A stretch of DNA of 63,813 bases, taken from positions 1 to 63,813 of the IMG/VR virus record IMGVR_UViG_3300044630_005032; one strand, 5' to 3'. Of this stretch, positions 27,388 to 57,683 are shown in pieces. Below the pieces are notes generated by a model. It was not told the origin of the DNA. It worked only from the letters and a program-made list of their open reading frames with translations, and did not search any database. The stretch's first letter is position 1. Every line of letters begins with the position of its first letter. A program made the position numbers and the translations under genes. This stretch comes from a virus.

Positions 27388-27402
27388 GGAAAGCTCAGAT
27401 AC
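27388..27402 (+). promoter_or_regulatory. Late element before portal
   Basis: GGAAAGCTCAGATAC, 23 bases before the GTG of the portal gene. Core GGAAAGCT shared with the other late elements. Confidence 0.5.
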
Positions 27403-27424
27403 GAGGCTGAGAGTACGGGCGGCG

Positions 27425-28939
27425 GTGCAATCTGAACATCCTGGAACCGACCCGAAGTTGCCATCGTTCCGGCATCCGATCTTGCGGGAGCACGCCGAGG
27501 ATCTGGAGCGAGCCTATGACGCCTGGTATTGCCTGAAGGGTGAGGCGACCAAGCGGAAGTATCTGCCGCCCGAACCAGCAGAACCACCGGCTGCCTATGA
27601 GGGAAGGCTGGGTCGTGCGGTGTTCGCCGATTTCTTCCGGGCTGGTGTCGAAGCCTTCGCAGGGGTGCTATCGCGCAGCAACCCAGTGAACCCACCGCCG
27701 ACCTTTGAGAAGGCGATGGACAACATTGATCTAGAGGGCAATAGCCTTGAGGCGTGGTGGCTCACCGTGGATGCCCTGTGCCTCCGCGATGGTGGGGTGC
27801 CGGTCCTGGTGGAGATGCCTGATGGTCAACCCACTGACGGGGCCAGCGAGGCTGCACTGAAGCGGCGCCCGTACCTGGTCAGCCGCACCCGTTCAACGTG
27901 CTTGAACTGGCGGACCGCCATCGTCAATTCGGTGGAGGTGGTGACCCGCTGCACATTCCTGGAATGGGCTGAGATTGATTCCCCCGATGGCGACTATGGG
28001 GTGATCTACGAGGAGCGCTACCGGGTGATTGAGGCAGGGAAGTGGACGCTGTACAAGTTGACCAAGCAGGCAGACGGCAGGCTGACTATTGGCCAGGTGG
28101 ACAAAGGCCAATACCTGGACGCCAGACAAAAACCGCTGCCGATCTGCCCGGTGGTCTGGTACCCAGCCGAGAAAGCCGGGTTCGGCAAAGGTGGGCAGCC
28201 ATTGCGGCAGGTGGTGGAGCACTGCTTCCAGCATTTTCGGAAGTCCAGCGATCTGGAGGAGAAGACCCACAAGTGCGCCATGCCGGTGCCGGTTGAGGAG
28301 GGTGGTATCCCAGTTGGGCCAGGCCAACCGGAAAGGCCTCTGGTTATCGGTCCCAATAGCGTCATCCGGCTGGAAAAAGGTGGGAAGTTCTATTGGTCAG
28401 AGCCCGAAGCCACATCCCTAGCCGAACAACGGGAACAGATCAAGGAAGTGGTTGAGCTGATCAATCAGCAGCTACTGGGATTCCTCAGTGGTGATAGCAA
28501 GATCACCAAGACTGCCACTCAGGCGCAACTGGAAGGCGGCAGGACGCAGGTGAGCATCAAAGCTATGGGCGAGCGCAAGAAAAGCGTGATGCAGTCCATC
28601 CTGGCGATCTGGTGCCTCTATACCGGGGAGGAGCTGCCTGTAGGCGCTGGCCTCACGATGGACGAGAACGCCTTTGTCCCGCCGCTCGATGCGCAGGGCG
28701 CCAAAGCGCTGATGGATTTAACCGGTGGTGAGCCGCTGATCAGCCAGGAGAGCGCGGTGGAGGAGCTGCAGCGCGGTGGCTTCAACCGGGCAACGAGCAG
28801 CGTGGAGGATGAGATGGAGCGGATCCGGCGCGAGCGGCCGACGCTGGGGGCGCCAACACCAGGGCGGAACGACACGACCACGCCGCTGGATATGAGCACA
28901 CCGCTGGATGAGGTGGAGCCGACGGTGGCGGAAAGCTAA
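27425..28939 (+). CDS. Portal protein
   Basis: 504 residues from a GTG. Matches the DUF4055-type portal pattern: GRLGRAVFADFFRAGVEAFA, a mid-region with NWRTAIV, PICPVVWYP, SSDLEEKTHKCAMPVPVEE and a long helix QREQIKEVVELINQQLLGFL. It forms the dodecameric ring for DNA entry. Follows the terminase as usual. Low-complexity acidic tail. Confidence 0.85.
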   Translation: MQSEHPGTDPKLPSFRHPILREHAEDLERAYDAWYCLKGEATKRKYLPPEPAEPPAAYEGRLGRAVFADFFRAGVEAFAGVLSRSNPVNPPPTFEKAMDNIDLEGNSLEAWWLTVDALCLRDGGVPVLVEMPDGQPTDGASEAALKRRPYLVSRTRSTCLNWRTAIVNSVEVVTRCTFLEWAEIDSPDGDYGVIYEERYRVIEAGKWTLYKLTKQADGRLTIGQVDKGQYLDARQKPLPICPVVWYPAEKAGFGKGGQPLRQVVEHCFQHFRKSSDLEEKTHKCAMPVPVEEGGIPVGPGQPERPLVIGPNSVIRLEKGGKFYWSEPEATSLAEQREQIKEVVELINQQLLGFLSGDSKITKTATQAQLEGGRTQVSIKAMGERKKSVMQSILAIWCLYTGEELPVGAGLTMDENAFVPPLDAQGAKALMDLTGGEPLISQESAVEELQRGGFNRATSSVEDEMERIRRERPTLGAPTPGRNDTTTPLDMSTPLDEVEPTVAES

Positions 28940-28942
28940 GCC
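28930..28942 (+). promoter_or_regulatory. Late element at the end of the portal gene
   Basis: GGAAAGCTAAGCC, overlapping the portal stop and 18 bases before the ATG at 28960. Confidence 0.45.
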
Positions 28943-28959
28943 GTAACCACAGAGTCACC

Positions 28960-29118
28960 ATGACTTCAGCGGAACAGCTTTACGAACAGATCAGCCTCGC
29001 CATCTCACAGTCGCTCTGCAGCCTGTTCGAGGTGGTTGGTGTGCTGGAACTGGCCAAGCAGGAGTTGGTGCTCGCCAGCTTTGACGAGGATTCCGACGAT
29101 GAGGAGGAAGGCGAATGA
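28960..29118 (+). CDS. Tiny acidic unknown protein
   Basis: 52 residues (MTSAEQLYEQISLAISQSLC), ending with a run of Asp/Glu (DEDSDDEEEGE). Coupled to the next tiny gene (ATGA). Sits between portal and the Mu-F-like gene. Confidence 0.5.
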   Translation: MTSAEQLYEQISLAISQSLCSLFEVVGVLELAKQELVLASFDEDSDDEEEGE

Positions 29119-29258
29119 AGGCCGCGTCAAATTGGAGCCTTGTTGTAGTGGGCTGCTTTTATCTGTTTGCAAGGAATGCAAACATACTTGACCATGCAGT
29201 TGCCATTGGGATGATTATTGCGGGCACTTGCTTTTTGATTGGCTCGCACACCGCCTAA
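29115..29258 (+). CDS. Tiny membrane protein
   Basis: 47 residues with two hydrophobic stretches (WSLVVVGCFYLFA and AVAIGMIIAGTCFLIG). AT-rich for the window. Function unknown. Confidence 0.45.
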   Translation: MKAASNWSLVVVGCFYLFARNANILDHAVAIGMIIAGTCFLIGSHTA

Positions 29259-29261
29259 TCA

Positions 29262-30392
29262 ATGGCCCAGGGCGACCGCATCATCAGCCGCGTAGACAGC
29301 TACGCCGCCATCCTCGATGAGCTGGAGAGGCGGATGGTGGAGAACACCACCGCCATGCTCCGCACCGCCCTGGATCGCGTCCTAGGCGACCTGAAGCGGC
29401 ATTACAGCGCCTACCTGAACGCCGTGGGCCCCGAGGCCCTGGATCCCGAGGGGAACCCGATCAGGGCCCCCGGTGCTTACAGCTCCGGCGAGGCGACAGC
29501 GAAATACCAGGCCATCCTCAGGGATGCTCAGCAGTTCCTACCGCCTGAGGAGATCGCAACTTGGCAGCGGCGGTTCACCACCGATCTAGTCGAGGCCCTA
29601 TCCGTTGGTGGTGAGGCGGCTGCCGCCCTGCAGACCATCGTGACCGGCGCCACCGCCACCTATGCCGGGGCCAACCCACTCGCGGTCCGTGCTGCCACGC
29701 AGGCGGCCACCGCCTTCATGCAGGGCGAAACTGCCCGGTTCCGTGATCAGATTGCCCAGATCGTCAGCGAGGGGGTGGCCCGTGGTTGGGGCTCCAGGCG
29801 GCTGGAACGGCAGATCGTCGCGGCACTGGAGGGCACAACCGATCCCACGGGCAAGACGGCCCGCATGGGGCTACGGCAGCGGGCTGAGGTGATCGCTCGC
29901 AGTGAGCTGGCCAATGCCTATGTGAAGGGGGCCATAGATCACAATCTGAAGGAGGGCTATGCGTTCATCCGGTGGGTCGCTGCCACCGATGAGCGGGTCT
30001 GTCGATGGTGTCTCAGCCGTCATGGGCAGATATTCCCGGCCGATCAGGTGGTGATCCCTGCTCACCCGCAGTGCCGCTGCACACCGGTTCCGGTGCCTGC
30101 CAATGAGGTGGAGGAGGATGATCCGGTGATTCGTGACACCCTGCTCGATGGTGAGTTCTGGCGGGAGGAGCAGGCGGCAGGCGTGAGGGCCCTGGCCAAG
30201 GCCGAGGGGATCAGTGAAGAGAAGGCGCGGGGGCTGCTGCAGCGGGCACTGACGACACCAACTGCCAGCGAGCGGTATCTGTTCCCCGATCGCAAGCGCA
30301 GCATCCCGCCCTCGGCGCCGTTGGATGCCCCGCAGGATGGGCGGACGTTCAGCGAGGCGATAGGGGAACTGGCGGCTAGGAGGGGTGGCTAG
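29262..30392 (+). CDS. Mu-F/SPP1-gp7-like minor head protein
   Basis: 376 residues. RAEVIARSELANAYVKGAID is the phage Mu F signature helix, followed by WVAATDERVCRWCLSRHGQ and PAHPQCRCTPVPV, the Cys/His core of this family. Joins portal and capsid and may be ejected with DNA. Its 3' end runs into a GGCTAGGAGGGGT tandem duplication (30374-30405). Confidence 0.88.
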   Translation: MAQGDRIISRVDSYAAILDELERRMVENTTAMLRTALDRVLGDLKRHYSAYLNAVGPEALDPEGNPIRAPGAYSSGEATAKYQAILRDAQQFLPPEEIATWQRRFTTDLVEALSVGGEAAAALQTIVTGATATYAGANPLAVRAATQAATAFMQGETARFRDQIAQIVSEGVARGWGSRRLERQIVAALEGTTDPTGKTARMGLRQRAEVIARSELANAYVKGAIDHNLKEGYAFIRWVAATDERVCRWCLSRHGQIFPADQVVIPAHPQCRCTPVPVPANEVEEDDPVIRDTLLDGEFWREEQAAGVRALAKAEGISEEKARGLLQRALTTPTASERYLFPDRKRSIPPSAPLDAPQDGRTFSEAIGELAARRGG

Positions 30393-30401
30393 GAGGGGTG
30401 G

Positions 30402-30731
30402 CTAGGGGGGCGATGAACCTTGCGAGCCGTTAAACTTTTTTGTTTCCTTATTCATGCCTATGTTGCGAATTGCCCCAAATTCAGAACTCCAAATAGAAAC
30501 GCTTTTGCCGTTGACAAAAACAATAATTACTTCTGTTGAGCCAATGTCTATCTCCGGTTCAACTTTTTTGAATGAGTTAGTAACAAGTCTTTTTTCAATT
30601 TCGCCGCCTTCAGAATTACCATAATCATATGTCGTGATAAAAGCATCTGCCACAATATCAGCTCCAAAGATGTTACAAGCCATGATGTAAAGGTTTTGAT
30701 CCCTTCTGAAAATACTTAAATCGAGATCCAT
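30402..30731 (-). CDS. Unknown AT-rich accessory gene
   Basis: 109 residues (MDLDLSIFRRDQNLYIMACN), beta-rich (ADAFITTYDYGNSEG; TEVIIVFVNGKSVSIW). GC well below its surroundings, leftward among rightward structural genes: the last member of an inserted leftward operon, moron-like. Confidence 0.6.
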   Translation of the reverse strand: MDLDLSIFRRDQNLYIMACNIFGADIVADAFITTYDYGNSEGGEIEKRLVTNSFKKVEPEIDIGSTEVIIVFVNGKSVSIWSSEFGAIRNIGMNKETKKFNGSQGSSPP

Positions 30732-30769
30732 GGGTTGGCGGCTAGGGGGTGATGGGTGGAGGGTTGGGG

Positions 30770-31018
30770 TTAGCGATAAACCACAAAGGAATCCAAGGGG
30801 AAACGTTCAATAAAATCTCGCACATCTGCTGCTGTCCTCAGCCCACCGCTTTCCAATAACTGGTTGCCCCAAGCAAGAAATTCGTCCCTTGTGGCCAAGC
30901 ATACTGCCCTTGTAGTGTCATTAACCATTGAAGCCAAGGCTCCCAATGTGTCACCCCTATCGCAAAAATCAAAGGCGCGTTGCTTGCACCATTCTAGGTA
31001 CTGCTCAGGTGTTTGCAT
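30770..31018 (-). CDS. Conserved small phage protein (YLEWCKQRA type)
   Basis: 82 residues from the ATG at 31018 after a CACCACC leader. QYLEWCKQRAFDFCDRGD, then LASMVNDTT resembles a recurrent small phage protein family without known role. Confidence 0.6.
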   Translation of the reverse strand: MQTPEQYLEWCKQRAFDFCDRGDTLGALASMVNDTTRAVCLATRDEFLAWGNQLLESGGLRTAADVRDFIERFPLDSFVVYR

Positions 31019-31053
31019 GGTGGTGGTTGACAATGTGGTTGATAAAGCGGGGC

Positions 31054-31338
31054 TCAGTGGTTGTCAAACCCGATGTGAAGCCACTGCCGGGGCTCAATCG
31101 TCAGCGGCGCGGGCCAGAAGCCGTGGCGGCGGAACTCAGCCGGAAGATCCCATTGCTGCTGGCGGCCCCTGGCCATTCTCAGGATTGCACCCACTATGCG
31201 GCTCTCGCCGATGCGGATCACCTCTCCGGTCTTCGGGTCGAAGGCCACCACGCCGCTGATCCTGCGCCCGGTGCGGTCGTAGACGGTGGCGCCGTTGGGG
31301 TATTGCTCGCGGAAGGCGGGGTCGTTGGCGTCAAGCAT
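31054..31338 (-). CDS. Small unknown protein
   Basis: 94 residues from the ATG at 31338: DRTGRRISGVVAFDPKTGEV, then IRIGESRIVGAILRMARGRQ is a plausible beta-hairpin plus helix. Overlaps the end of the DUF551-like gene by eight bases. Confidence 0.55.
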   Translation of the reverse strand: MLDANDPAFREQYPNGATVYDRTGRRISGVVAFDPKTGEVIRIGESRIVGAILRMARGRQQQWDLPAEFRRHGFWPAPLTIEPRQWLHIGFDNH

Positions 31339-32458
31339 GGGGGCTGGGGGTGATGGGTGGGCTGGGGAGGGGTTGCCAGTGGGTTGGCTCGGGGAACCAA
31401 GTACCCTTTTGCCCATGCCAGTAGTGCATCGGAAACCTGATCGTGCCATCAGGCGGCGCGGCGATGGGGGAAATTGACTTTGCTGCCGTGATGTAAGGAC
31501 CCGTGAACTCGTTGTAGGCGATGAAATCAGCCCCATCCCTAGGCGCCGTTTCAATCGGCTGCCAGGCGCTGCGCTGGTTCCAATCCGCCAGTGCCTGCTC
31601 TGCTTTTTCAGTGTCGATCTGTGCGGTTCCGTCGCATGATTTAACCTGTGACAACAGATCGGCAAGCGCTGATTGAACTCCCACGGGGCCATCGTGGCAG
31701 CCGCTGAACCCAGGATGCGCCAGGATCGCCTCAGCGTCTTCTGGATAGGTGTCGTACCTGCCATCCACTTCTTCGAGGATCTGGGCCAGCCTCAGGACGC
31801 GCTCCGCCTCGGGCTCTTCCGGTGCAGGAGTGGTGGTTAGGGTTTGGCACAGATCACGAAGCCGTTGGATCTCGATCAGGGCCGCCATCAGCTCCAGGTT
31901 CACTTCCCCCTCCACCGGCTGAGCGGCGGGCTGGGTAACCGGAGCACGCCAGCGGGTGATAGCGGCGGTGATCATGTCGCGCAGCATTGGAAGGGGGGTA
32001 AATGGTGGTGCGCGGAAGACATCAGCCGCAAGCAATGCGCCGTTGTTGCCTGGTACAAACCCAAACTCTTTGCACAGCTCGGCAACGTCGTCAAGGCTTG
32101 GCCCTTCTGTTTGATCAGCCCGAGGATCCGGCCCACCACGCAGCACGTCAAGGTGCTGGCTTGCAGTCAGGCCGTCGGAGAAGCCGGGGTCGTGCAGCTC
32201 GGCTAGGTTTACTGGGTTGGCTGCGGGCTTGGCAGAAGACGGCGGGGTAACCAGCCCATCCCTCAACAGGCGGGCAGCAGTGCTAATCACCAGATCAGCG
32301 TCGTGGTAAGGCTCAGCAGGAACCCGCATCACAAAGTTGCGGCGGACGCAATCAGCGCCCTGCGTCACATAGTCGGCCAACTCGTCCAGTCTGTCGGCGA
32401 GACGCTTTACATCAATCCCGTGGCCCCAGGGGTCTGATTGTGTCGTGCGGTCCTTCAT
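31331..32458 (-). CDS. DUF551-domain phage protein
   Basis: 375 residues from the ATG at 32458. C-terminal ~65 residues: SAWQPIETAPRDGADFIAYN ... HYWHGQKGTWFPEPTHWQPL, with the W-P-I ... T-H-W-x-P-L-P pattern of DUF551. The rest is a linker-rich helical region. A second, diverged DUF551 copy is encoded at 35165-35902. Confidence 0.65.
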   Translation of the reverse strand: MKDRTTQSDPWGHGIDVKRLADRLDELADYVTQGADCVRRNFVMRVPAEPYHDADLVISTAARLLRDGLVTPPSSAKPAANPVNLAELHDPGFSDGLTASQHLDVLRGGPDPRADQTEGPSLDDVAELCKEFGFVPGNNGALLAADVFRAPPFTPLPMLRDMITAAITRWRAPVTQPAAQPVEGEVNLELMAALIEIQRLRDLCQTLTTTPAPEEPEAERVLRLAQILEEVDGRYDTYPEDAEAILAHPGFSGCHDGPVGVQSALADLLSQVKSCDGTAQIDTEKAEQALADWNQRSAWQPIETAPRDGADFIAYNEFTGPYITAAKSISPIAAPPDGTIRFPMHYWHGQKGTWFPEPTHWQPLPSPPITPSPHA

Positions 32459-32608
32459 TGTTGGTGGTGGCAAGTGGGTTGGTCGCGTGGTGTCACCGCT
32501 GGCATTCAATACCAACATACTCAGCGGCTTCTGAGTCGCTTTTGGTTACCGGAAGGCCGTGGAAAAGGCCGTGGTCTTGTACTCTGGGGAAAGGCCCATC
32601 CTTGCGCA

Positions 32609-32899
32609 TCAACTTAAGTTAAGCGCTTTGCGCACTTCCCTGCGCAGTAACTGTAAAGCTCTAGTACCGACAACAATCTCAACTGGAACAAGGTCCCTTT
32701 GCTCAACCTCAGCCAAAAGCTCCACAATGCGCTCGCTGACCAGCTTCCCGGACGACAGCCGCTCGCCTTCCTCGGCGGCCTGCAGCAGCTTGCGGGCGTG
32801 ATCCATGGCGATGGCCAGCGGGTCATCCTTTGCGGGGTCCATCTCCCACCCGTCAACAGCATCAGCAAGCTGCTTCAGGGCGGCGCGAAAGTCGGTCAT
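32609..32899 (-). CDS. Small unknown protein, first gene of a leftward accessory operon
   Basis: 96 residues from the ATG at 32899. Start context CGACCATGACCGACTTC is almost the same as at 35902, and MTDFRA is shared. Helical, charged (LVSERIVELLAEVEQRDLVP). Driven by the promoter at 32979-32984. Confidence 0.6.
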   Translation of the reverse strand: MTDFRAALKQLADAVDGWEMDPAKDDPLAIAMDHARKLLQAAEEGERLSSGKLVSERIVELLAEVEQRDLVPVEIVVGTRALQLLRREVRKALNLS

Positions 32900-32927
32900 G
32901 GTCGGTTGGCGGTGGTGGTGAAGGGGT

Positions 32928-32984
32928 GCCGGAGGTACAACGGTCCCTGCGCAGAACAGGAAACCCTCCGGCCCGCCCATCATA
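32928..32984 (-). promoter_or_regulatory. Leftward early promoter with long leader stem
   Basis: Minus strand GGATTATGAT (TATGAT 32984-32979), followed by a leader whose ends pair perfectly: GCCGGAGG (32972-32965) with CCTCCGGC (32935-32928). The equivalent stem at 36250-36310 has different, still pairing bases. Confidence 0.5.
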
Positions 32985-33011
32985 ATCCATTGCAGTTTCC
33001 TAAGCCACCAC

Positions 33012-33023
33012 GGCAAGCTAAGG
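33012..33023 (+). promoter_or_regulatory. Late element back to back with the leftward promoter
   Basis: GGCAAGCTAAGG, 16 bases before the ATG at 33039. About 55 bp around it (AGCCACCACGGCAAGCTAAG) closely resembles the block at 36321-36366. Confidence 0.4.
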
Positions 33024-33038
33024 AAACGCAACGGCCCC

Positions 33039-33227
33039 ATGCCTCTTGATCTACGTGCGTTCCTGACTCTGCACGCCACCGTTGGCGCCAGGGATGAGGA
33101 GGCCACCCGCCAGGTGCTGCGTGATGTGGCCCTGAACCTGCCGCAGCGGACCGCTCACAAAGTGGTCTCGATGCTGGAGCGGTCCATTGGCGTGGGTGCT
33201 CGGGTCTGGCTGCAGAGGCTGGCCTAG
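33039..33227 (+). CDS. Small unknown protein
   Basis: 62 residues: helical (RDEEATRQVLRDVALNLPQR; HKVVSMLERSIGVGARVWLQ). The next frame begins with GTG immediately after its stop. Possibly a small head-tail joining or regulatory protein. Confidence 0.5.
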   Translation: MPLDLRAFLTLHATVGARDEEATRQVLRDVALNLPQRTAHKVVSMLERSIGVGARVWLQRLA

Positions 33228-33539: not shown

Positions 33540-33716
33540 TCACTTCGCCTTCATGCCCCCGCCCTTGGCAGGCTTGGGCTTCTTCGGCATGGCCTTTCCC
33601 TTGCCCTTGCCAGCCTTGCCCATTGCCATGCCCTTGCCTGCTTTGCCGTTGTACACGGGGTCACCGCTGACTGCCTGAGGTTTCCTGGAAACCTGGGCTA
33701 GATCGTGCGACGCCAT
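33540..33716 (-). CDS. Lys/Gly/Met-rich basic peptide
   Basis: 58 residues from the ATG at 33716: KAGKGMAMGKAGKGKGKAMP, then KKPKPAKGGGMKAK, very basic. Its ATG and the ATG of the rightward gene at 33715 share one CATG. Low complexity makes the call uncertain; such peptides are seen beside head genes. Confidence 0.4.
   Translation of the reverse strand: MASHDLAQVSRKPQAVSGDPVYNGKAGKGMAMGKAGKGKGKAMPKKPKPAKGGGMKAK
33679..33699 (+). promoter_or_regulatory. Late element variant
   Basis: GGTTTCCTGGAAACCTGGG is an imperfect late element (GGAAACCTGGG), here part of an inverted repeat GGTTTCC/GGAAACC, before the ATG at 33715. Confidence 0.35.
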
Positions 33717-36349: not shown

Positions 36350-36360
36350 GGCAAGCTGAG
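36350..36360 (+). promoter_or_regulatory. Late element before the tail chaperone
   Basis: GGCAAGCTGAG, 19 bases before the GTG at 36380, back to back with the leftward promoter. Confidence 0.4.
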
Positions 36361-37632: not shown

Positions 37633-37735
37633 AGTAGCCCAGCGACCACCGCCTTCCAGCCCACCACACGCGAGCCTGATACGGGCGCCGTGCGTTATGG
37701 GGACAGTGGGAAACGCCGCGAGGGTAAGAAGCCAT
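37472..37735 (-). CDS. AP2-like DNA-binding small protein
   Basis: 87 residues from the ATG at 37735. NARRPYQARVWWAGRRWSLG, then YFTSIQAAAQAVEDCYRQIE matches the AP2/integrase-type beta-sheet-plus-helix (G....LG.F.t...Aa.A) found in homing endonucleases and phage proteins. Its 3' part overlaps the T domain antisense by 161 bp. It is preceded by its own late element on the minus strand. Confidence 0.6.
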   Translation of the reverse strand: MASYPRGVSHCPHNARRPYQARVWWAGRRWSLGYFTSIQAAAQAVEDCYRQIERWAAMNLPPPMLALQHRERSAPTGSLPAADHPPA

Positions 37736-37750
37736 GCCCCAGCTTTCCCA
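37736..37750 (-). promoter_or_regulatory. Late element on the minus strand
   Basis: TGGGAAAGCTGGGGCATG with the ATG of the AP2-like gene directly attached, the same arrangement as at 41095. Behind it, GGCTTAAGCC (37767-37776) is a perfect palindrome. Confidence 0.55.
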
Positions 37751-37822
37751 CCTAAGCCGCTGAGAAGGCTTAAGCCGTAGCGGAACCCTGCGAGGTAACG
37801 CACCGGCAGCGCCGGCAGGATC

Positions 37823-38656
37823 ATGACTCAGGCATGGGAACAGGCCTACGGCTTTAGGTTCTTCTTCACCCCCCTCAAGTCTTCGGCGGTTGACCTCAAC
37901 CGCATCAACCTCGGCGGGCTTGGCACCGGCAGGTTCATTGACAACACCACCCTGCAAAGCTCCACCGCCAAGGTGATCACCGCTGGCACGGGTGACACGT
38001 TTGCCGTTGGTGTTGGCACCAAGGCGGTTACCAATGCCGTGAGCACCAGCACCACCGCAACCCTGACCTTTGCTGATGCCCATGGCATCACGGTGGGCAA
38101 GCGGATCGCGGTGAAGGACTTGCCTGCCCCCTTCACCACGCTCAACGGGTCTTTCGTGGTGACAGCAGTTACGACCACCTCGCCGCACACCCTGACCTAT
38201 GCCCTGACCGGTTCGGCGATCACCACTGCCGCCGTATCTGCTGGTGTGGTGGCCCCCTCACTCCTGCTCGACGGCACCGATCCCCCGTTCCGCCTGCTGG
38301 GTCTGACCAATATCCAGCCCAGCAACAGCACCACCAAAGAAAGCGTCACCACCTACGACGACGAGGCGGGCAGCTACAACACCCCGATTCCTACCGCCAG
38401 GGACAAGACCTGGAGCCTGTCCGGGGCGATGAACTTCGCCGATCCTGCGTGGCGTGCCATGCGGATCTGTGAAGAGTTCAACGTGAGCGAGAAGTTGATG
38501 GTTGAGTACGCCGTCATCGGCCCGAACAACGGGAAGCAGGTGGAGTACGGCTATGGCTTCTTCGAGAGCTACCAGCCTGAGCAGGCTGCTGGCACGGTGA
38601 TCAAGTTCCAGGTAAGCCTGGCCGGTTACGGCAAGGTTGGGCTGGATCTGCTCTGA
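37823..38656 (+). CDS. Major tail (tube) protein
   Basis: 277 residues, beta-rich, with Ser/Thr/Ala repeats (TNAVSTSTTATLTFADAHGI), YDDEAGSYNTPIPTARDKTW, then the tube-like end EYGYGFFESYQPEQAAGTVI, KFQVSLAGYG. Fits lambda V-like tube proteins by size and position before the tape measure. Bases 37633-37822 upstream hold the AP2-like gene start and a palindrome. Confidence 0.7.
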   Translation: MTQAWEQAYGFRFFFTPLKSSAVDLNRINLGGLGTGRFIDNTTLQSSTAKVITAGTGDTFAVGVGTKAVTNAVSTSTTATLTFADAHGITVGKRIAVKDLPAPFTTLNGSFVVTAVTTTSPHTLTYALTGSAITTAAVSAGVVAPSLLLDGTDPPFRLLGLTNIQPSNSTTKESVTTYDDEAGSYNTPIPTARDKTWSLSGAMNFADPAWRAMRICEEFNVSEKLMVEYAVIGPNNGKQVEYGYGFFESYQPEQAAGTVIKFQVSLAGYGKVGLDLL

Positions 38657-39001: not shown

Positions 39002-39220
39002 TTACGCTTCAGCGCTAAACGGCTGGCTGACCCTCTCCATGCGCTTGGCCCAGGTGTCGCCACCTTCGCGGCCCCGGCACGGGTTGATGCAGGCGGGGTC
39101 GTTGACCATGTTGCAGACCAGGCCCGCCAGATCAAGCTCAGAGGCCTTCTTACCGGTTGCCCAGTAAAGCTGTTCGCCTAGCCAGAGGGCGCCGCAGCGT
39201 GGGCAGGAGCGGGCTTCCAT
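39002..39220 (-). CDS. Small cysteine-rich protein
   Basis: 72 residues. SCPRCGALWLGEQLYW with CNMVNDPACINPC gives five or six Cys in a zinc-ribbon-like order. Last gene of a leftward operon, stopping just after the terminator. Confidence 0.6.
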   Translation of the reverse strand: MEARSCPRCGALWLGEQLYWATGKKASELDLAGLVCNMVNDPACINPCRGREGGDTWAKRMERVSQPFSAEA

Positions 39221-39349
39221 GGCGGGCTGGCAGTGTTGCGGCAGGTTTCCGGGTGCGTCAGCCGCCCTGCTTGGATTTGGTCAGAACAAACGGCGTCAGC
39301 GATTCGACTACGCCTTCTTCGCAAAGGGCTTCAATGAACTTTGGGTTGT
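39220..39349. repeat. 130-bp direct repeat, copy 1
   Basis: Identical to 39603-39732 except one base (39228 T versus 39611 G). It covers the 3' end of the gene at 39258-39560 and 37 bases beyond. Confidence 0.95.
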
Positions 39350-39560
39350 CTTGTATTAGTGCTGCAAGTTTGGGTGAGCAAAAAATTGCTACCGTATCGC
39401 CTTTTGCATGAGCTTCCGCTCCCACTAAAAGAAGATTGAGGCCCACTGGGAAGCTGTGATACCACTTGTCAAGCTCTAGCAGCGCTGCAATCCGCTCCGC
39501 TTTTTTCTTTTCACTATCTGGAAAAATGATGCTGTTAGTGTGTTCAATCTTGTCTTTCAT
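39258..39560 (-). CDS. Unknown protein, paralogue A
   Basis: 100 residues. N-terminal ~60 residues differ from paralogue B except for conserved positions (IAALLELDKWYHS; SPKLAALIQ), while the last ~29 residues (NPKFIEALCEEGVVESLTPF ...) are identical. Helix/strand mix, no known domain. Confidence 0.65.
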   Translation of the reverse strand: MKDKIEHTNSIIFPDSEKKKAERIAALLELDKWYHSFPVGLNLLLVGAEAHAKGDTVAIFCSPKLAALIQDNPKFIEALCEEGVVESLTPFVLTKSKQGG

Positions 39561-39602: not shown

Positions 39603-39732
39603 TGGCGGGCGGGCAGTGTTGCGGCAGGTTTCCGGGTGCGTCAGCCGCCCTGCTTGGATTTGGTCAGAACAAACGGCGTCAGCGATTCGACTACGCCTTC
39701 TTCGCAAAGGGCTTCAATGAACTTTGGGTTGT
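39603..39732. repeat. 130-bp direct repeat, copy 2
   Basis: Spacing from copy 1 is 383 bp. The repeat ends in mid-gene, so it is not a simple gene duplication of uniform age. Confidence 0.95.
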
Positions 39733-39940
39733 TGTTTAGGACTTCTGCTAATTTGGGCGTGCAGCAAAGTACCATTGTATAACCCCTTGCGTGATCTTTC
39801 GCACACCTTAGTGCAAGTTCTGCACTGAAAACAGTAGCTTGATTCCAGTCTTTAAGTTCAAGCAAAGCTGCAATTTGCTCAAATTGTCTTCTGTGGGCAT
39901 CGGTGAAGAATAGCGAGTGAGGATAACTTTCTTTGCTCAT
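39641..39940 (-). CDS. Unknown protein, paralogue B
   Basis: 99 residues (MSKESYPHSLFFTDAHRRQF). TPKLAEVLNN leads into the shared C-terminus. ATGA-coupled to the RHH gene upstream. Confidence 0.65.
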   Translation of the reverse strand: MSKESYPHSLFFTDAHRRQFEQIAALLELKDWNQATVFSAELALRCAKDHARGYTMVLCCTPKLAEVLNNNPKFIEALCEEGVVESLTPFVLTKSKQGG

Positions 39941-41094: not shown

Positions 41095-41108
41095 GGGAAA
41101 GCTGAGGC
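41095..41108 (+). promoter_or_regulatory. Late element directly abutting a start codon
   Basis: GGGAAAGCTGAGGC with ATG at 41109 attached. If GGGAAAGCT is a -10, the mRNA would be leaderless. Confidence 0.55.
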
Positions 41109-41555
41109 ATGAGCCTGCCTACCACTGCACAGGAGCTGTACGACCTACTGGCGGGCGATGCGGAGGTCAGCGCAGCCTTAGGCGCGTACACGCCTCGCGG
41201 CCAGAGCCCTGTCCCCGCCATCGCCGTGGTGCGCCGCAATGAGCAACTACCCGAGGGGGTGGCCGTGGCTGGCCTGGAGGTGGTGATCCTGAACAACCCC
41301 GACTACAGCCCTGAACCGATGCTTACCGGGGAGACGGGGCTGAACCCACAGTTCCGGCTGTACGTGAGTGAGTGGTCACCCTCGACCGACTTGACGGCCC
41401 TGCAGGCGCTCACCCAGCGGATCATCAGCCTCCTGCCGGGCTGCCGTGCGGTGCCGATCGGTGGTGATGCGCCGGGGCAGGGGCTCGGGGTGCTGGATCA
41501 GTACGCCATCAGCTGGACAAACCCCACTCAGTACGTCGTGACACCGGAGAGCTGA
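41109..41555 (+). CDS. Putative tail terminator / minor tail protein
   Basis: 148 residues. AQELYDLLAGDAEVSAALGA, a beta core (VAGLEVVILNNPDYSPEPML) and TALQALTQRIISLLPGCRAV fit gpU-like tail-end proteins by layout. Directly upstream of the tape measure. Confidence 0.55.
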   Translation: MSLPTTAQELYDLLAGDAEVSAALGAYTPRGQSPVPAIAVVRRNEQLPEGVAVAGLEVVILNNPDYSPEPMLTGETGLNPQFRLYVSEWSPSTDLTALQALTQRIISLLPGCRAVPIGGDAPGQGLGVLDQYAISWTNPTQYVVTPES

Positions 41556-48591: not shown

Positions 48592-48606
48592 GGGAAAACT
48601 GAAGCA
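48592..48606 (+). promoter_or_regulatory. Late element
   Basis: GGGAAAACTGAAGCA, 14 bases before the ATG at 48621. Confidence 0.5.
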
Positions 48607-49066: not shown

Positions 49067-49080
49067 GGGAAAGCTCCTGT
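49067..49080 (+). promoter_or_regulatory. Late element
   Basis: GGGAAAGCTCCTGT, 14 bases before the ATG at 49095. Confidence 0.4.
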
Positions 49081-50472: not shown

Positions 50473-50484
50473 GGAAAGCTGCGC
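50473..50484 (+). promoter_or_regulatory. Late element before the scaffold gene
   Basis: GGAAAGCTGCGC, 34 bases before the ATG at 50518. Confidence 0.4.
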
Positions 50485-51382: not shown

Positions 51383-51456
51383 GGCGTGATGCCTAGGTCG
51401 ATTCCAAATCAATCAGCTCGGCGTGATGCCTTGCGGTGTTCTTTCGGCGTGATGCC
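51383..51456 (+). repeat. GGCGTGATGCC motif, copies 2-4
   Basis: Exact copies at 51383-51393, 51420-51430 and 51446-51456, in the 152-base leader between scaffold and capsid genes. The leader otherwise holds a weak late element (GGGGAAACAT near 51353). Confidence 0.75.
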
Positions 51457-51488
51457 ACCCCCCTTGACCTTCACCTGGATTTCCCCCA

Positions 51489-52403
51489 ATGGGACTTACG
51501 ATTTTGGAGGCCGCCAAAACTGATACCAATCAGAAGCGGGTGGCCATTGTTCGCGGTCTTGCTGAAAGCGAGATGATCAGCCTTGTGCCCTTCGCCAATG
51601 TGATGGGTGGCTTGGACTACGGCACCGAGGAAGAGCTGCCAGGCGTTGGTTTTCGTGCCCTAAACGAAACCTACGACCCCAGCTATGGTGTCATCAATCC
51701 GCAGTATGAACGGCTGAACTACTTCGGTGGAGACATCGATGTGGACATTCAGATCCTCAAGAATAAAGGGCGTCAGGCGAGGGCTGATCAGATCACAATG
51801 AAAGTGCGCTCAATGCGCCTTACATTTGAAGATGTCATGATCAACGGCGACGCAGCGGTCGACCCTCGCGCTTTTGATGGCCTCAGGAAGCGTCTTCCTA
51901 CCGACTGCTCACAAGCGGTCAACATCAACGGAGCCCTTTCGCTCACTGGACTTGATGAGCTGATTGATGCCGTAGATGGTGACAACAAGATCCTGCACAT
52001 GAACAAAACGATGCGTCGGCGCCTTACGGCTGCCAGTCGCAACACTGCCATCGGCGGGTTCATTACTTACGAGCAGGATGCCTTTGGTCGTAGGGTTACT
52101 TACTACAACGATGCTCGCATTGTAGTAACAGACACCAACGCCCAGAACGTGCAGATCCAGGGCTTCACGGAAGATACCAACCGCACCAGTATTTACTGCG
52201 TGTCCTATGGCGATATGGAGGTCACCGGCATCCAAGGCCCTGATTCTGCTGGTGGCTACGGAATCGACATCAAGGAGTTCGGGGAAGTCTCTGATGCTCC
52301 TGTTGATCGGACCCGGATTGACTGGTCAATCGGCCTGGCAATCAAGAACGGCCGATCTGCCGCCCGCGCCTACGGCATCACCAATGCTGCGGTAACCGCC
52401 TGA
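51489..52403 (+). CDS. Major capsid protein
   Basis: 304 residues. ELPGVGFRALNETYDPSYGV, LNYFGGDIDVDIQILKN, QITMKVRSMRLTFEDVMING and SIYCVSYGDMEVTGIQGP match HK97-fold capsids of the LPGVGFR...GGD(V/I)DVD group. Placed after the tail genes rather than after portal. Confidence 0.88.
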   Translation: MGLTILEAAKTDTNQKRVAIVRGLAESEMISLVPFANVMGGLDYGTEEELPGVGFRALNETYDPSYGVINPQYERLNYFGGDIDVDIQILKNKGRQARADQITMKVRSMRLTFEDVMINGDAAVDPRAFDGLRKRLPTDCSQAVNINGALSLTGLDELIDAVDGDNKILHMNKTMRRRLTAASRNTAIGGFITYEQDAFGRRVTYYNDARIVVTDTNAQNVQIQGFTEDTNRTSIYCVSYGDMEVTGIQGPDSAGGYGIDIKEFGEVSDAPVDRTRIDWSIGLAIKNGRSAARAYGITNAAVTA

Positions 52404-52441
52404 TCATCGCTACACCTATCCACTTTCCAAGGTACTGATTC

Positions 52442-52912
52442 ATGGCTCGTTCTACTGGTCTTGCCCGCCGGCAGGGCTATCAACTGGATGCTGAGACCAT
52501 CCTGCTCGGTCTGGTCAAGGCGGGGGCCCGTGGCCGCGCTGCTGAGACCCGCACTGGCGCCGCTCGTCTGCTCAGCACCAATCTGGCCGCCCAGAACATG
52601 GTGAAGATCGAAGGCTTTGGCCAATCCAGCACTTCGGCTGGCGGCTACCTGGTGCAAGCTGCCCACGTTGCTGAAGGTGCTGCGATTGGCACCGCCTCGG
52701 CCTACGCCACCATCGGCGTGATCAGCTTTACCGCTGGTCGGATCAACAAGGTCGCCCTTTCTGGTGAGCAGATCCGAGAAGCGGTAAAGGCTGCCGGTTC
52801 GCTGACCGGTGACATCCGGGTGGTGGCAGTTCGGCTGACTGCAGGAACCGGAGCCAATGGTGCTGCGGTTCCTGCGGGCACGAACACCGTGGCGATCTGC
52901 CCAGCGGAGTGA
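52442..52912 (+). CDS. Unknown capsid-module protein
   Basis: 156 residues. Ala/Gly-rich; GLARRQGYQLDAETILLGLV, GYLVQAAHVAEGAAIGTASA, VVAVRLTAGTGANGAAVPAG. Possibly a decoration or head-completion protein. Function inferred from position only. Confidence 0.55.
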   Translation: MARSTGLARRQGYQLDAETILLGLVKAGARGRAAETRTGAARLLSTNLAAQNMVKIEGFGQSSTSAGGYLVQAAHVAEGAAIGTASAYATIGVISFTAGRINKVALSGEQIREAVKAAGSLTGDIRVVAVRLTAGTGANGAAVPAGTNTVAICPAE

Positions 52913-52938
52913 GCCGAAAGCGGCTTGTGATGACCTGG

Positions 52939-52962
52939 GGGCCCTTTGGGGCCCTTTCCACT
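52939..52962 (+). terminator. Possible terminator hairpin
   Basis: GGGCCC-TTTG-GGGCCC followed by TTTCC, with a GGGGCCCTTT direct repeat. Weak T-run. Confidence 0.3.
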
Positions 52963-52973
52963 ATGGAGGCCCC

Positions 52974-53222
52974 ATGAACATTTCGGTAGGCGTTGGCGTT
53001 GACCTGGAGCAGCTGCAGCAGGCCGTCAACGAGCCAGGTGAACCCCAGCAATCAGCGGCTGAGCCCGAGCACCAGGAGCCCGTTCAGGAGGCTGCTGAGC
53101 AGGCCACCGAAGAAGCGGTGGCGTGCCCCACCCCAAAGCGCAAGAGAGCGCGGGTGACAGGCGGGCGGTTTGCGGCTGACGACCCGTCCACCGCTGCAAA
53201 TGAGGCGTGGTCGGAAAGCTGA
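52974..53222 (+). CDS. Small acidic/basic unknown protein
   Basis: 82 residues from the ATG at 52974 with GGAGG nine bases upstream. Glu/Gln/Ala-rich middle (EHQEPVQEAAEQATEEAVAC) and a basic PKRKRARVTGGRFAA segment. Function unknown. Confidence 0.55.
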   Translation: MNISVGVGVDLEQLQQAVNEPGEPQQSAAEPEHQEPVQEAAEQATEEAVACPTPKRKRARVTGGRFAADDPSTAANEAWSES

Positions 53223-53226
53223 GGCA
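53212..53226 (+). promoter_or_regulatory. Late element
   Basis: CGGAAAGCTGAGGCA overlapping the previous stop, 44 bases before the ATG at 53271, which also has AGGAG upstream. Confidence 0.5.
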
Positions 53227-53270
53227 GTGATCAAGCGGTCTGCCGCTAAACACCACCCCAGGAGACTTGC

Positions 53271-53672
53271 ATGGCCTTTCAGTTTTCAGTAGGAGCACGG
53301 AACGCCGCCCTTGATGCAATCGAGACGGCAGCGGGTACGGCGCCCACGCTGACCATTCGCACTGGCTCTGTGCCGGCCAACTGCGCGACCGCTAGAACCG
53401 GCACGGTGCTTGCAACGCTGACGCTTCCATCCGATTGGCTAGCGGCGGCATCAAACGGATCAAAAACCCTCGCCGGCACCTGGCAAGACCTATCAGCAGA
53501 CGCTGCCGGCACAGCGGCTCATTTCAGTATTGATCAAGGAGCCACTTGTCATATTCAGGGCACGGTGACTGCAACCGGCGGCGGCGGCGACATGACACTT
53601 GACAACACCTCGATCGCCACGGGTCAGCAAGTGAACATCACGGCCTTCACCCTGACCGCTGGAGGTGCCTGA
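53271..53672 (+). CDS. Virion structural protein
   Basis: 133 residues. ALDAIETAAGTAPTLTIRTG, ATLTLPSDWLAAASNGSKTL, CHIQGTVTATGGGGDMTLDN, VNITAFTLTAGG: a beta-sandwich pattern recurrent in phage structural operons. Probably decoration or fibre-related. Confidence 0.7.
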   Translation: MAFQFSVGARNAALDAIETAAGTAPTLTIRTGSVPANCATARTGTVLATLTLPSDWLAAASNGSKTLAGTWQDLSADAAGTAAHFSIDQGATCHIQGTVTATGGGGDMTLDNTSIATGQQVNITAFTLTAGGA

Positions 53673-53710
53673 TGGCGGTTCCTTGGCCGCGCCACTTATG
53701 GGGGTAAGAA

Positions 53711-54175
53711 ATGGCAACCCGAGAACAGAAAATCGCAGCGAAGGTGGCAGAGGCGCAGTTTGCCGGGATCGCAGAAGCGGATGTTGCCGCCGCGCTCAAT
53801 GCACCAGATAGCAACCTACCAACCAAACGGAGTGATGTGGCCACTTATGACGCCAGGGAAGTTCTGCTTTCTACGGGTGAATGGGGAGCAGTAGTTCTCG
53901 CTGCCGAGAATGCTGCAGTTCCTGAACAGGTGCGCGGTGCGTGCATTGTTCTGCGTGACGCAATTATCCAAACCTCGACAATCAGGATCAGTATGCCAAC
54001 GATATACAGCGCAACGGCCAACCTGCTTGGCGTTCTAGTTTCTGCCGGAATTTTGACAAATGCAACCCGCAATGCACTGATGGCACTCGCAGACGTAGCC
54101 CAATCCTGGGCGGAAATGGAAGGGGTGGGTGTTGTCACGATCCGTGACATTGGAATCGCAAGGGGGAGCATCTGA
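53711..54175 (+). CDS. Unknown structural-operon protein
   Basis: 154 residues, helical (REQKIAAKVAEAQFAGIAEA; NALMALADVAQSWAEMEGVG). One-base overlap with the next gene. No domain recognised. Confidence 0.6.
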   Translation: MATREQKIAAKVAEAQFAGIAEADVAAALNAPDSNLPTKRSDVATYDAREVLLSTGEWGAVVLAAENAAVPEQVRGACIVLRDAIIQTSTIRISMPTIYSATANLLGVLVSAGILTNATRNALMALADVAQSWAEMEGVGVVTIRDIGIARGSI

Positions 54176-54606
54176 TGGCCGTCGCAAAATGGGCAGCGCC
54201 CGCTACTCGCGGGTCTAACATTGCCGGAAACGCGATCAATTCCCTAGCGAATGGATCGGAGACAACTTCTGGTAACGCAATCGCTTACGACAACGGCACC
54301 AGTAGGGATCTTTATGCAGCGGTTACCATCAAGCTAGCTTCTTTTACACCGACTGCGGGCGGGTCCGTCACGCTGCGCGTTTATAGCGGTGACGGCACAG
54401 ATGTTCCAGACATCGGCGGAGGCCCTTTTGACAGCTATGTGGCAGCACTAACAGTGACCACAGGTGCCAAGGTCGCAGTGTTCCCAATGGTGCGGCTATA
54501 TCCTTTTTCAAACATGCGATTCACGGTCGTAAACAACGCAGGCGTCTCAACGGCATCAAGCGGACACGAACTTTACATCCGCCCGTTCAACGAGGATGTC
54601 AGCTAA
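54175..54606 (+). CDS. Beta-rich structural protein
   Basis: 143 residues. DLYAAVTIKLASFTPTAGGS, VTLRVYSGDGTDVPDIGG, MRFTVVNNAGVSTASSGHEL: a likely small beta-sandwich virion protein. One-base overlaps on both sides. Confidence 0.6.
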   Translation: MAVAKWAAPATRGSNIAGNAINSLANGSETTSGNAIAYDNGTSRDLYAAVTIKLASFTPTAGGSVTLRVYSGDGTDVPDIGGGPFDSYVAALTVTTGAKVAVFPMVRLYPFSNMRFTVVNNAGVSTASSGHELYIRPFNEDVS

Positions 54607-55469
54607 TGCCTCGCGGGGTGTCGCCACTGGATGAGGCGCGGTTACAGGGGAGGCTCTGGACGCCGGCCCAACTGCGCACCGCCTTGTGGCTTGATGCTGC
54701 CGATTTGTCCACCATCAGCACGGCCACGGGCGTCAGCGAATGGCGGGACAAGAGCGGGAACGCAAGAAACTTCACGCAAGGGACTGGCGGTACACAACCC
54801 ACGCTCACGCCAGGGGCGCTGAATGGCAGAAACGTACTGGCCTTCAACGGGTCGCAATGGCTGACCTCTGTGAATACAGTGGCAACATGGAACTTCCTGC
54901 ACAACACCAACGGATCGAGCATCTTTGCCGTCTGGAAAGCCGGAAACATCAGCGATCCCAATGCAATCTATGGTTTGATGGGGAGCAATGCGGCTACATC
55001 GGCCAATATCGGCGCCTATATCGCCTATGACGACAGGGCTAGTGCTCCCAGAAACAATACCATTCTCGTCCAGGTTTCGGGTGGTGGCAGTACGTCTGTG
55101 GCGGCTGCGTCTGCCGACGGTCTGATGCCTGCCAATACGCCTGTCATTCTTTCGCACATCGCCGATCCCAATAATGGCACTGCCGCCAACAGGTCATTTG
55201 TTCGGGTCAACAAGACACTGAGTCAAATCAACGCCTCACCGGCTGCTCCCTCTGCGTCCAACGCATCCTTTGCTTTGCAGATCGCCGCGCTTGGCAATAA
55301 CACACTGCCGCTTGTCGGCTACATTGCTGAAATCATCGTCCTTGCATCTATTGCGAGCGCCAGGGTTCGGCAGCAGATCGATGGCTATCTGGCGTGGAAG
55401 TGGGGTTTGCGAGACGCCCTGACCACCGGCCATCCCTTCGCTAACCGCCCGAACCTCATCGGAGACTAG
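54606..55469 (+). CDS. Lectin-like (LamG/concanavalin) tail protein
   Basis: 287 residues. ALWLDAADLSTISTATGVSE with WRDKSGNARNFTQ opens a LamG-like jelly roll, and the end RVRQQIDGYLAWKWGLRDAL with TTGHPF is the typical C-terminal tail of such phage and cyanobacterial lectin domains. Probably binds host polysaccharide. Confidence 0.75.
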   Translation: MPRGVSPLDEARLQGRLWTPAQLRTALWLDAADLSTISTATGVSEWRDKSGNARNFTQGTGGTQPTLTPGALNGRNVLAFNGSQWLTSVNTVATWNFLHNTNGSSIFAVWKAGNISDPNAIYGLMGSNAATSANIGAYIAYDDRASAPRNNTILVQVSGGGSTSVAAASADGLMPANTPVILSHIADPNNGTAANRSFVRVNKTLSQINASPAAPSASNASFALQIAALGNNTLPLVGYIAEIIVLASIASARVRQQIDGYLAWKWGLRDALTTGHPFANRPNLIGD

Positions 55470-55471
55470 CC

Positions 55472-56767
55472 ATGCTGCGCCTTAGAGTTCCGTCGCTGGG
55501 GACAGGCGTTAGCGGTAGCGCAGTTGCAGGCACGGCCAGCGGGACGATCGCCTTTACCGGGACCGCGACTGGCGCCGTCATTACTTCCGGCACCGCCAGC
55601 GGCACCCTGCCGCTTACGGGGACTTCGGCGGGCAGTATAGGCAACGCCCCGGCCACCGCAACCGCGTCGGGCACGCTGGACCTCGGCGGGGCGGCAGCGG
55701 GCGCGGTCGTTGTATTTGGGGTCGCTGCAGGAACCCTGCCCCTCGGCGGGGCGGCTACAGGAGCGGTCATTACATCTGGCTTGGTCAGTGGCACGCTACC
55801 CCTGTCCGGCATCGCTGCAGGCAACATCGGCAATGCGCCAATCATTGGCACGGCCTTTGGGTTACTGGGCTTAACCGGTGCGGGGGCAGGTGGAGTAGTT
55901 GCATCGGGCATAGTTGCCGGCACGTTTCCGCTGGTCGGGACTGGGGTTGGTGCTGTTCGCCTAGTTGCCGCAAGCAGTGGCACCCTGCCTTTGTCTGGTG
56001 CCGCAACAGGCAACATCGGCGCCACTCCAATCAGCTCCACTGCGTCGGGCTCCCTACCAGTTTCCGGGTCTGCGACCGGCAAGGTCAGCGTCAGCGGCGC
56101 AATCAATGGCGTTCTGTCGCTCACTGGCACCGGAACGGCTCTTGTTCGCGTGTCCGGCACCGCCAGCGGCAACCTGCCGCTCGTTGGCGCCGGGGCGGGC
56201 ACCGTGGGCACGTCAAGCGTCTCTGGTACAGCTGCAGGCTCATTGCTTTTTAGTGGGACAGCTACAGGCGCCGTTCAAGTTTCCGGCTTTGCGGTCGCCG
56301 TTTTTGGCATCACCGGTAGTGCAGCAGGAAGCGGACCAATTCAAATTGCCGCCCGCTTCGCATTCCCTGGTGATCCAGCGAATGGGGGAAAACTCCTTAT
56401 GTCACGCCAGGGCGGGCAAAGTCTCGCCGAGGTTTCAATGAGTACGTTTTACCTCAAGCTGGGCGACACTTCCCCAGCGCTTCGATACGCGATAACGCCA
56501 AAATCAGTGGTGCTGACCGGCGCATCCGTTCAGTTTCAAGTGCGACCAAGGCGACCAAAAGGTGCGGCTGCCGTAATTGACGCAGCGGCCGTGGTGGTGA
56601 TTGCAACGGGCACGCCAACAGTGGAATACGGCGAGTGGCAGGCAGCCAACATTACTAGCCCTGGCCTGTATCAGGCGGAGTTCCGGGTGACCTATGCCGA
56701 TGGCAGTGTTGAGACGTTCCCTAATGACGATTTCATTTTGGTAAAGATTTCGGAAGACATTCGATAA
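55472..56767 (+). CDS. Repeat-rich tail fibre with BppU-like C-terminal domain
   Basis: 431 residues. Residues about 15-290 are ~17-residue repeats of the type ASGTLPLTGTSAGSI, likely a beta-helical shaft. The C-terminal ~110 residues (FYLKLGDTSPALRYAITPKS; GEWQAANITSPGLYQAEFRV; ETFPNDDFILVKI) match the immunoglobulin-like baseplate upper protein domain. Confidence 0.75.
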   Translation: MLRLRVPSLGTGVSGSAVAGTASGTIAFTGTATGAVITSGTASGTLPLTGTSAGSIGNAPATATASGTLDLGGAAAGAVVVFGVAAGTLPLGGAATGAVITSGLVSGTLPLSGIAAGNIGNAPIIGTAFGLLGLTGAGAGGVVASGIVAGTFPLVGTGVGAVRLVAASSGTLPLSGAATGNIGATPISSTASGSLPVSGSATGKVSVSGAINGVLSLTGTGTALVRVSGTASGNLPLVGAGAGTVGTSSVSGTAAGSLLFSGTATGAVQVSGFAVAVFGITGSAAGSGPIQIAARFAFPGDPANGGKLLMSRQGGQSLAEVSMSTFYLKLGDTSPALRYAITPKSVVLTGASVQFQVRPRRPKGAAAVIDAAAVVVIATGTPTVEYGEWQAANITSPGLYQAEFRVTYADGSVETFPNDDFILVKISEDIR

Positions 56768-56834
56768 CCTAGCCCCGCTCCCTGGGGTCACCGGATCAGC
56801 CGCCAATCTGATTTAGTGGGAGCGCTGCGGGAGT

Positions 56835-56849
56835 GGGAAAACTGAGGCA
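56835..56849 (+). promoter_or_regulatory. Late element before the lysis genes
   Basis: GGGAAAACTGAGGCA, 14 bases before the ATG at 56864. Confidence 0.55.
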
Positions 56850-56863
56850 GAGCGCGATACCCC

Positions 56864-57121
56864 ATGGAAAACGGCGATCAGCACCAGCAAAAAGCTCAGT
56901 TCTGGGGCGAGGTAACACCGCAAGTCGCCAGCGGACTGATTATGATGGCAGTGGCAGGGATTATCTATATCGGAGTCACAGTCCCCCGCCAGCTTGATTT
57001 GGTCCTTGAGAACCAGAAAGCCGTCCTCACCCGCCAGCTTGCAGCAGAGAGTCGGATTGAAAGGATGGAGGAGAGCGTCGGCGGAATCGACCGGCGGCTG
57101 ACACGGCTGGAGGCGCGATGA
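56864..57121 (+). CDS. Holin-like protein with one membrane segment
   Basis: 85 residues. Short polar start, membrane segment ASGLIMMAVAGIIYIGVTV, then a coiled coil (AESRIERMEESVGGIDRRLT). Resembles one-segment holins or hemolysin-XhlA-like proteins. ATGA-coupled to the next membrane protein. Confidence 0.6.
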   Translation: MENGDQHQQKAQFWGEVTPQVASGLIMMAVAGIIYIGVTVPRQLDLVLENQKAVLTRQLAAESRIERMEESVGGIDRRLTRLEAR

Positions 57122-57354
57122 ACTGCCGGGAGGTCATCATCAACACTGTGGCCTTGTGCCTGGGCCTTGCTGCTGCCGGAGGCTTCAGTGGGGCGATCTA
57201 CTGCCAGTCACAGGGCGGGGAATGCGTGGAAATATGGAAAGCTGCAGGCACCGGGGCCCTGGCAGCAGCCACGACAGGCGGCACCTTGCTGGCGCAGTTG
57301 GATGGGCGGCGGCGGCAAGACCCCGAGGATCCCCAGGAACCGCCCACGCCCTAA
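57118..57354 (+). CDS. Holin candidate with two membrane segments
   Basis: 78 residues. TVALCLGLAAAGGFSGAIYC and AAGTGALAAATTGGTLLAQL are two short hydrophobic segments with a charged Pro-rich tail. Position before the endolysin candidate supports holin. Confidence 0.55.
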   Translation: MNCREVIINTVALCLGLAAAGGFSGAIYCQSQGGECVEIWKAAGTGALAAATTGGTLLAQLDGRRRQDPEDPQEPPTP

Positions 57355-57641
57355 GCGGGTTGGGTGTGGAAGGCTTCTAGCAGCTCTTCCCGCCATTGCT
57401 CTAGGTCTTTCGGATCGGTATCTTCCCAGGCCATGATCACCGGCTCAAAGTTGATGATCTCAGCCTTTGTGCTGCTGACAATCTTGACGGTCACCCCAAC
57501 GATTCCGCGCAAGATGCAGGGGGCCGAGAACATTGTGCCTCCCGGTAGAAGATCAAAAGCACGTCCCATGATGCCTAGTCCGCGCTTGCCTTCCAGGGGG
57601 AAGACCCTCTGAAGATCCCAGGCGATGACAGCGGTAGGCAC
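57351..57641 (-). CDS. Unknown protein, leftward
   Basis: 96 residues. AWDLQRVFPLEGKRGLGIMG, IVGVTVKIVSSTKAEIINFE, DTDPKDLEQWREELLEAFHT: balanced coding composition with a beta core and terminal helix. Overlaps the holin gene end by four bases, convergent. Confidence 0.55.
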   Translation of the reverse strand: MPTAVIAWDLQRVFPLEGKRGLGIMGRAFDLLPGGTMFSAPCILRGIVGVTVKIVSSTKAEIINFEPVIMAWEDTDPKDLEQWREELLEAFHTQPA

Positions 57642-57668
57642 GGCACTAGGCGTGTGCCTCAGCTTGCC

Positions 57669-57683
57669 GGGAAACCTGGGGGA
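57669..57683 (+). promoter_or_regulatory. Late element before the peptidase
   Basis: GGGAAACCTGGGGGA, 15 bases before the ATG at 57699; supports that ATG over the GTG at 57654. Confidence 0.4.

Follow-up and report, generated by a model that had tools for sequence, protein, structure and literature searches.

The degenerate word GGNANNCT, repeated ahead of late genes on both strands of a cyanophage genome, most plausibly (at a probability of about 85%) serves as a -10-like core in late promoters that consist of one element and are read by the phage's own sigma factor. The stretch analysed, hereafter the window, is 63.8 kb of a tailed phage with terminase, portal, major head and tape-measure genes, and by virtue of an integrase-like gene at 58867 the phage is probably temperate. 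Identical 127-nt copies occur three times (1-127, 62891-63017 and 63687-63813), two of them at the record ends, and are accompanied by a 796-nt tandem duplication; the end repeat suggests a complete genome. A genome-bin contig labelled Cyanobium carries a sigma gene 94% identical to that of the window, which points to a freshwater picocyanobacterium as the probable host. Shorter tandem repeats, with units of GGCTAT, TGGGACGCCGCA and a 22-mer, lie at 17326-17556, 18250-18421 and 3495-3608, and in an Rfam scan nothing matched except low-complexity microRNA entries over the GGCTAT repeat.

What is conserved is the 8-mer GG[AC]AA[ACG]CT, present in the window mainly as GGAAAGCT with the variants GGCAAGCT, GGAAACCT and GGAAAACT. 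Taken over the window and its distant relatives, the degenerate consensus is GGNANNCT, which replaces the GGGAAARCTGAGGCA of the original prediction. That prediction had listed 12 copies of a 15-mer. The core is present at all 12 places, while the 15-mer was rejected as the unit, having just five copies at one mismatch or fewer: two exact (41095 and 56835) and three with one mismatch (37735-37749 on the minus strand, 48592 and 53212). With up to three mismatches it gives 13 matches against 4.7 ± 1.9 in shuffles. The remaining listed places, including 33012 and 36350 (both GGCAAGCT) and 57670 (GGAAACCT), have just the 8-mer in common, and the GAGGCA found 3' of the 8-mer is retained at some sites only. 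Four further copies had been overlooked (33678-33685 minus, 33687-33694 plus, 39243-39250 minus and 57661-57668 minus) together with a weak one at 37782 on the plus strand, and all five are in or close to divergent gene arrangements. The copies had also been said to fall always in the gap before a start codon; this is true of nearly all, the exceptions at 28930 and 53213 overlapping the stop codon of the preceding gene.

The first G of the element stands 27-30 nt before most start codons and 13-14 nt before two. On the plus strand, GGAAAGCT at 27388-27395 precedes the portal gene (GTG at 27425); this copy, 3' of the sigma gene, is kept at a variable distance from the sigma stop codon in all the distinct relatives compared. 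It recurs at 28930-28937, overlapping the portal stop codon 30 nt before 28960, and is followed by GGCAAGCT at 33012-33019 (27 nt before 33039) and at 36350-36357 (30 nt before 36380). The weak element, GGAACCCT at 37782-37789, lies 41 nt before the tail protein gene at 37823 and reads GGGAAACCT in several relatives. Further plus-strand copies are GGAAAGCT at 41096-41103 (13 nt before the ATG at 41109), GGAAAACT at 48593-48600 (28 nt before 48621), GGAAAGCT at 49068-49075 (27 nt before 49095, kept in relatives), at 50473-50480 (45 nt before 50518) and at 53213-53220 (58 nt before 53271), and GGAAAACT at 56836-56843 (28 nt before 56864). On the minus strand, GGAAAGCT at 37741-37748 is 14 nt before the ATG at 37734 and is kept in relatives, and GGAAACCT at 39243-39250 is 30 nt before 39220. 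The surrounding minus-strand gene region is duplicated in tandem (39220-39419 and 39603-39802, 87% identical), and a second element copy lies within the duplication at 39626-39633. A different repeat, GGCGTGATGCC, occurs four times on the plus strand (50499, 51383, 51420 and 51446) before gene 50518 and the major head protein gene at 51489, the latter being without a GGNANNCT element.

The element is real, conserved and far above chance. Half of the 36 occurrences of the 8-mer on the two strands (18) fall no more than 75 nt upstream of a same-strand start, positions that make up 3.9% of the window sequence; the gene list behind these positional counts was partly curated by hand. In the interval 24-36 nt upstream of window starts there are 12 copies of GGNANNCT, whereas 60 letter-rearranged patterns average 0.9 and the next-best pattern reaches 4. 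When four minus-strand gene calls that may have been biased by the motif are dropped, 9 copies remain against 1.0 at random positions, a count reached in none of 1000 random trials. Across 1.35 Mb of the window and its relatives, none of the 2520 possible orders of the same letters is as common as GGGAAAGCT, which has 72 distinct contexts, many of them orthologous sites, where rearrangements average 5.8 (sd 6.1). A pattern-free EM search of upstream regions recovers GGAAAGCTG with a log-likelihood of 74, compared with 37-52 in first-order shuffles. In unannotated relatives, a count taken ahead of all possible ORF starts was rejected as too noisy, the loose word being uninformative there.

Close relatives supply a second line of evidence. 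Among IMG/VR orthologues of gene 41109, GGAAAGCT is exact in all 68 with readable upstream DNA, and the 60 nt upstream of it average 53% column identity over 44 non-redundant sequences, the upstream DNA falling into several unrelated versions that differ between subgroups. The spacing from element to ATG is 13 nt in 63 of the orthologues and 26 nt in five. In some, an intrinsic terminator lies upstream, its T-run ending 22 or 10 nt before the GG (10 nt in L067, L068 and L072). Upstream terminators were rejected as a general rule, being found at only one to four element-bearing genes per annotated phage, and are supportive.

The variable spacing bears on the possibility that the repeat acts in RNA as a translation-initiation element, in the manner of the start-associated sequences of cluster K mycobacteriophages. 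Copies invariably lie in the sense orientation near start codons, and the cluster K repeat, a short asymmetric sequence that precedes many starts and begins GGGA, looks similar and has been proposed to serve translation (PMC3203893). That repeat is, however, the 13-bp GGGATAGGAGCCC, placed directly ahead of the start codon and with no sigma link reported; the window sequence differs from it and most copies lie 27-30 nt before the start. A distance that shifts between 13 and 26 nt among orthologues of one gene, the palindromic overlap at divergent genes (a DNA-level design), versions in phage S-CBS2 such as GGCATCCT that have no anti-Shine-Dalgarno match, and the fact that the presence of the word tracks a sigma gene all speak against a role in translation, which is considered quite unlikely.

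The overlap takes the form of two dyads, each made of two outward-facing copies with one base between them. At 33.68 kb the arrangement is AGGTTTCC-T-GGAAACCT, with GGAAACCT at 33678-33685 (minus) 30 nt before the GTG at 33655 and GGAAACCT at 33687-33694 (plus) 28 nt before 33715. At 57.66 kb it is AGCTTGCC-G-GGAAACCT, with GGCAAGCT at 57661-57668 (minus) 27 nt before the GTG at 57641 and GGAAACCT at 57670-57677 (plus) 29 nt before an endolysin-like gene at 57699. A scan of the window and relatives for the dyad pattern found 34 non-identical matches, a few of them degenerate. Relatives such as L012 carry a dyad between a gene like that at 39002-39220 (minus strand) and the 41109 orthologue; its window counterparts, at 39250 and 41096, are separated by other genes, a layout that could have come about through an insertion into the dyad that spared the two halves. 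Symmetry in the sequence is known to give rise to bidirectional promoters in bacteria (PMC10268837). The dyads also resemble binding sites for dimers, as would be expected if the word were the operator of another phage regulator (a late activator or repressor, or a stoperator-like system) near ordinary promoters, and any regulator inherited together with the sigma would show an equal association with the word. Against an operator, most copies are single, asymmetric and held within a narrow distance of the start codon, and no other conserved promoter element is found nearby. An operator is thus very unlikely.

Turning to the presumed reader of the promoter, the sigma gene (26471-27385, plus strand) begins where the gene for the large terminase subunit (25020-26474) ends. 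Its product matches PHROG sigma families, and its best NCBIfam match is SigF over residues 39-145. The original prediction of a SigF-like sigma is right as to the best match; the score is 52.6 bits against a curated cut-off of 261 and covers the N-terminal half only. Judged by these profile matches, the protein falls short of the SigF / SigB-F-G sigma family and is a partial, diverged relative as opposed to a standard SigF. In close relatives, Pfam region 2 is detected in 14 of 25 sigmas and region 4 in none of the 25. The AlphaFold model of the window sigma has a mean pLDDT of 64, too weak to settle the matter of region 4, and a Foldseek search with this weak model retrieved sigma-70 family chains (best E 4e-4). 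Among the points that count against the promoter reading are that the C-terminal half of the sigma is helical and that GGNANNCT is GC-rich for a -10.

The region upstream of the element (-45 to -1) has no position above 0.3-0.5 bit, and thus no conserved -35 element. A sigma that lacks region 4 would explain both this and a terminator that ends 10 nt before the element. The word TAAGCC was rejected as an obligatory upstream partner, being missing upstream of many 41109 orthologues. The longer TAAGCCRTT recurs in the window, mostly between genes, at 486, 4129, 12610, 36321 and 41042 (plus) and at 5359 and 51344 (minus); TAAGCCGT was counted 8 times where 1.0 would be expected, the Cyanobium bin shows no enrichment of TAAGCCGTT, and TAAGCCRTT is possibly an early promoter or an operator.

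Distant cyanophages allow the word and the sigma to be followed together. In S-CBS2 and S-CRES1 (estuarine Synechococcus) and P-SS2 (Prochlorococcus), a sigma gene directly follows terL; the encoded proteins are 24-26% identical to the window's sigma, and Pfam region 4 was not detected in these three homologues. All four terminase-linked sigmas have SigF as best NCBIfam match in the N-terminal part, with Pfam region 2 scoring from weak to strong. Late genes of the three phages are preceded by GGCATCCTA, GGAATACTA, GGTAGACT and similar words at the same spacing as in the window. Copies number 21, 14 and 13 in S-CBS2, S-CRES1 and P-SS2, respectively, against 1.8, 1.0 and 0.9 at random positions and 2, 0 and 1 on the opposite strand, and GGNANNCT ranks first of 60 patterns in each. 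Independent EM searches recover the word in the window, S-CBS2 and S-CRES1; the blind search in P-SS2 placed a TTGACA motif first. The latter belongs to a different repeated promoter-leader module of P-SS2 (L146), in which small genes have TTGACA followed, nearer to the start codon and ahead of it, by GTCGAGA (12247, 12609, 12897 and 13220 minus; 26440, 26981 and 27244 plus). Five control phages without a terminase-linked sigma (S-CBS4, S-LBS1, S-CBS3, MED4-184 and Cr-LKS4) have 0-2 copies and no signal; S-CBS4, Cr-LKS4 and P-SS2 were covered over their first 45-50 kb. The sole annotated sigma of S-LBS1 and S-CBS3 is RpoD-like or group 2, and Cr-LKS4 does have a SigF-like sigma, located away from terL, whose match to region 4 is weak. 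The word and the terminase-linked sigma therefore co-occur in four genomes and are missing in five; the four share ancestry in this region, and the word could instead be read by some third factor inherited along with the pair. In S-CBS2 and P-SS2 the element also precedes the sigma gene itself, which suggests that the sigma activates its own expression.

Two established SigF sequences were compared with the element. The Bacillus SigF -10 sequence GGNNANAMT, which the original prediction had invoked, fits only 2 of the 16 main sites, namely the GGGAAAACT copies at 48592 and 56835. The phage sigma fits the SigF model best, and cyanobacterial SigF (group 3), which has a region 4, reads a GG-containing element, GGTAA, at -12 (PMC2758279), in keeping with a SigF-like reader. 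Given that element and a full-length match to SigF-like proteins encoded in the Cyanobium bin, the promoters might be meant for the host's own SigF. The characterised promoters of this kind, in Synechocystis, however, also need TAGGC at -32, a sequence that is not conserved here at -45 to -1 from the element and whose requirement counts against the main reading too; moreover, the presence of the word tracks the phage gene. Recognition by host SigF is accordingly barely credible. The Cyanobium genome bin shows no enrichment of GGGAAARCT (36 occurrences against 29 for the reversed word), which adds to the case against host SigF and led to the rejection of a host origin of the word.

The idea of a phage-specific promoter thus holds in essence, on conservation, spacing, dyads and co-occurrence with the sigma, with its consensus revised and its action apparently independent of a -35 box. 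From these comparisons we infer that transcripts start at the element, that this sigma reads it and where the start points lie. Host RNA polymerase carrying the phage sigma, which has no recognisable region 4, would read GGNANNCT without a -35 box. The gp36 sigma of phiEco32 likewise lacks region 4 and uses one promoter element, with transcription starting 6-8 bp downstream (PMC8948821). If the same offset applies, transcription would start about 6-8 nt past the final T of the element, the mRNAs of 41109 and 37734 would start at or within the ATG and be leaderless or nearly so, and most other genes would have leaders of about 12-20 nt. Back-to-back copies around one base would fire divergent gene pairs.

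The arrangement resembles two known systems. As in the middle and late promoters of phiEco32, a phage sigma with no recognisable region 4 would be paired with a single element and no -35; unlike here, the phiEco32 element is AT-rich (tAATGTAtA), the sigma lineage and hosts are others, and dyads are not known to have been noted. T4 late promoters similarly have a single element at the -10 position, about one helical turn before the start (PMC2988020), no -35 conservation and use of both strands, whereas their element is an 8-bp TATA box and gp55 belongs to another family that requires gp33 and the sliding clamp. By the features that mark the phiEco32 gp36 and T4 gp55 systems, the window likewise has one late-gene element without a -35 and a sigma with no recognisable region 4. 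It is reasonably probable that freshwater Cyanobium phages share with siphophages of Synechococcus and Prochlorococcus from estuaries and the sea a -35-free and non-AT-rich late promoter class with the consensus GGNANNCT, driven by a SigF-like sigma from which region 4 has been lost and marked by leaderless starts and overlapping bidirectional dyads.

In the P-SS2 genome paper the predicted promoters are all of the sigma-70 kind, and no more is said of the group 3 sigma than that its likely targets are the sequences of a particular regulon (PMC2784084). The element is a concrete candidate for the target sequences of P-SS2-type sigmas in at least four cyanosiphophage genomes, and it may serve as a marker for late transcription units in the genomes of uncultured cyanophages.
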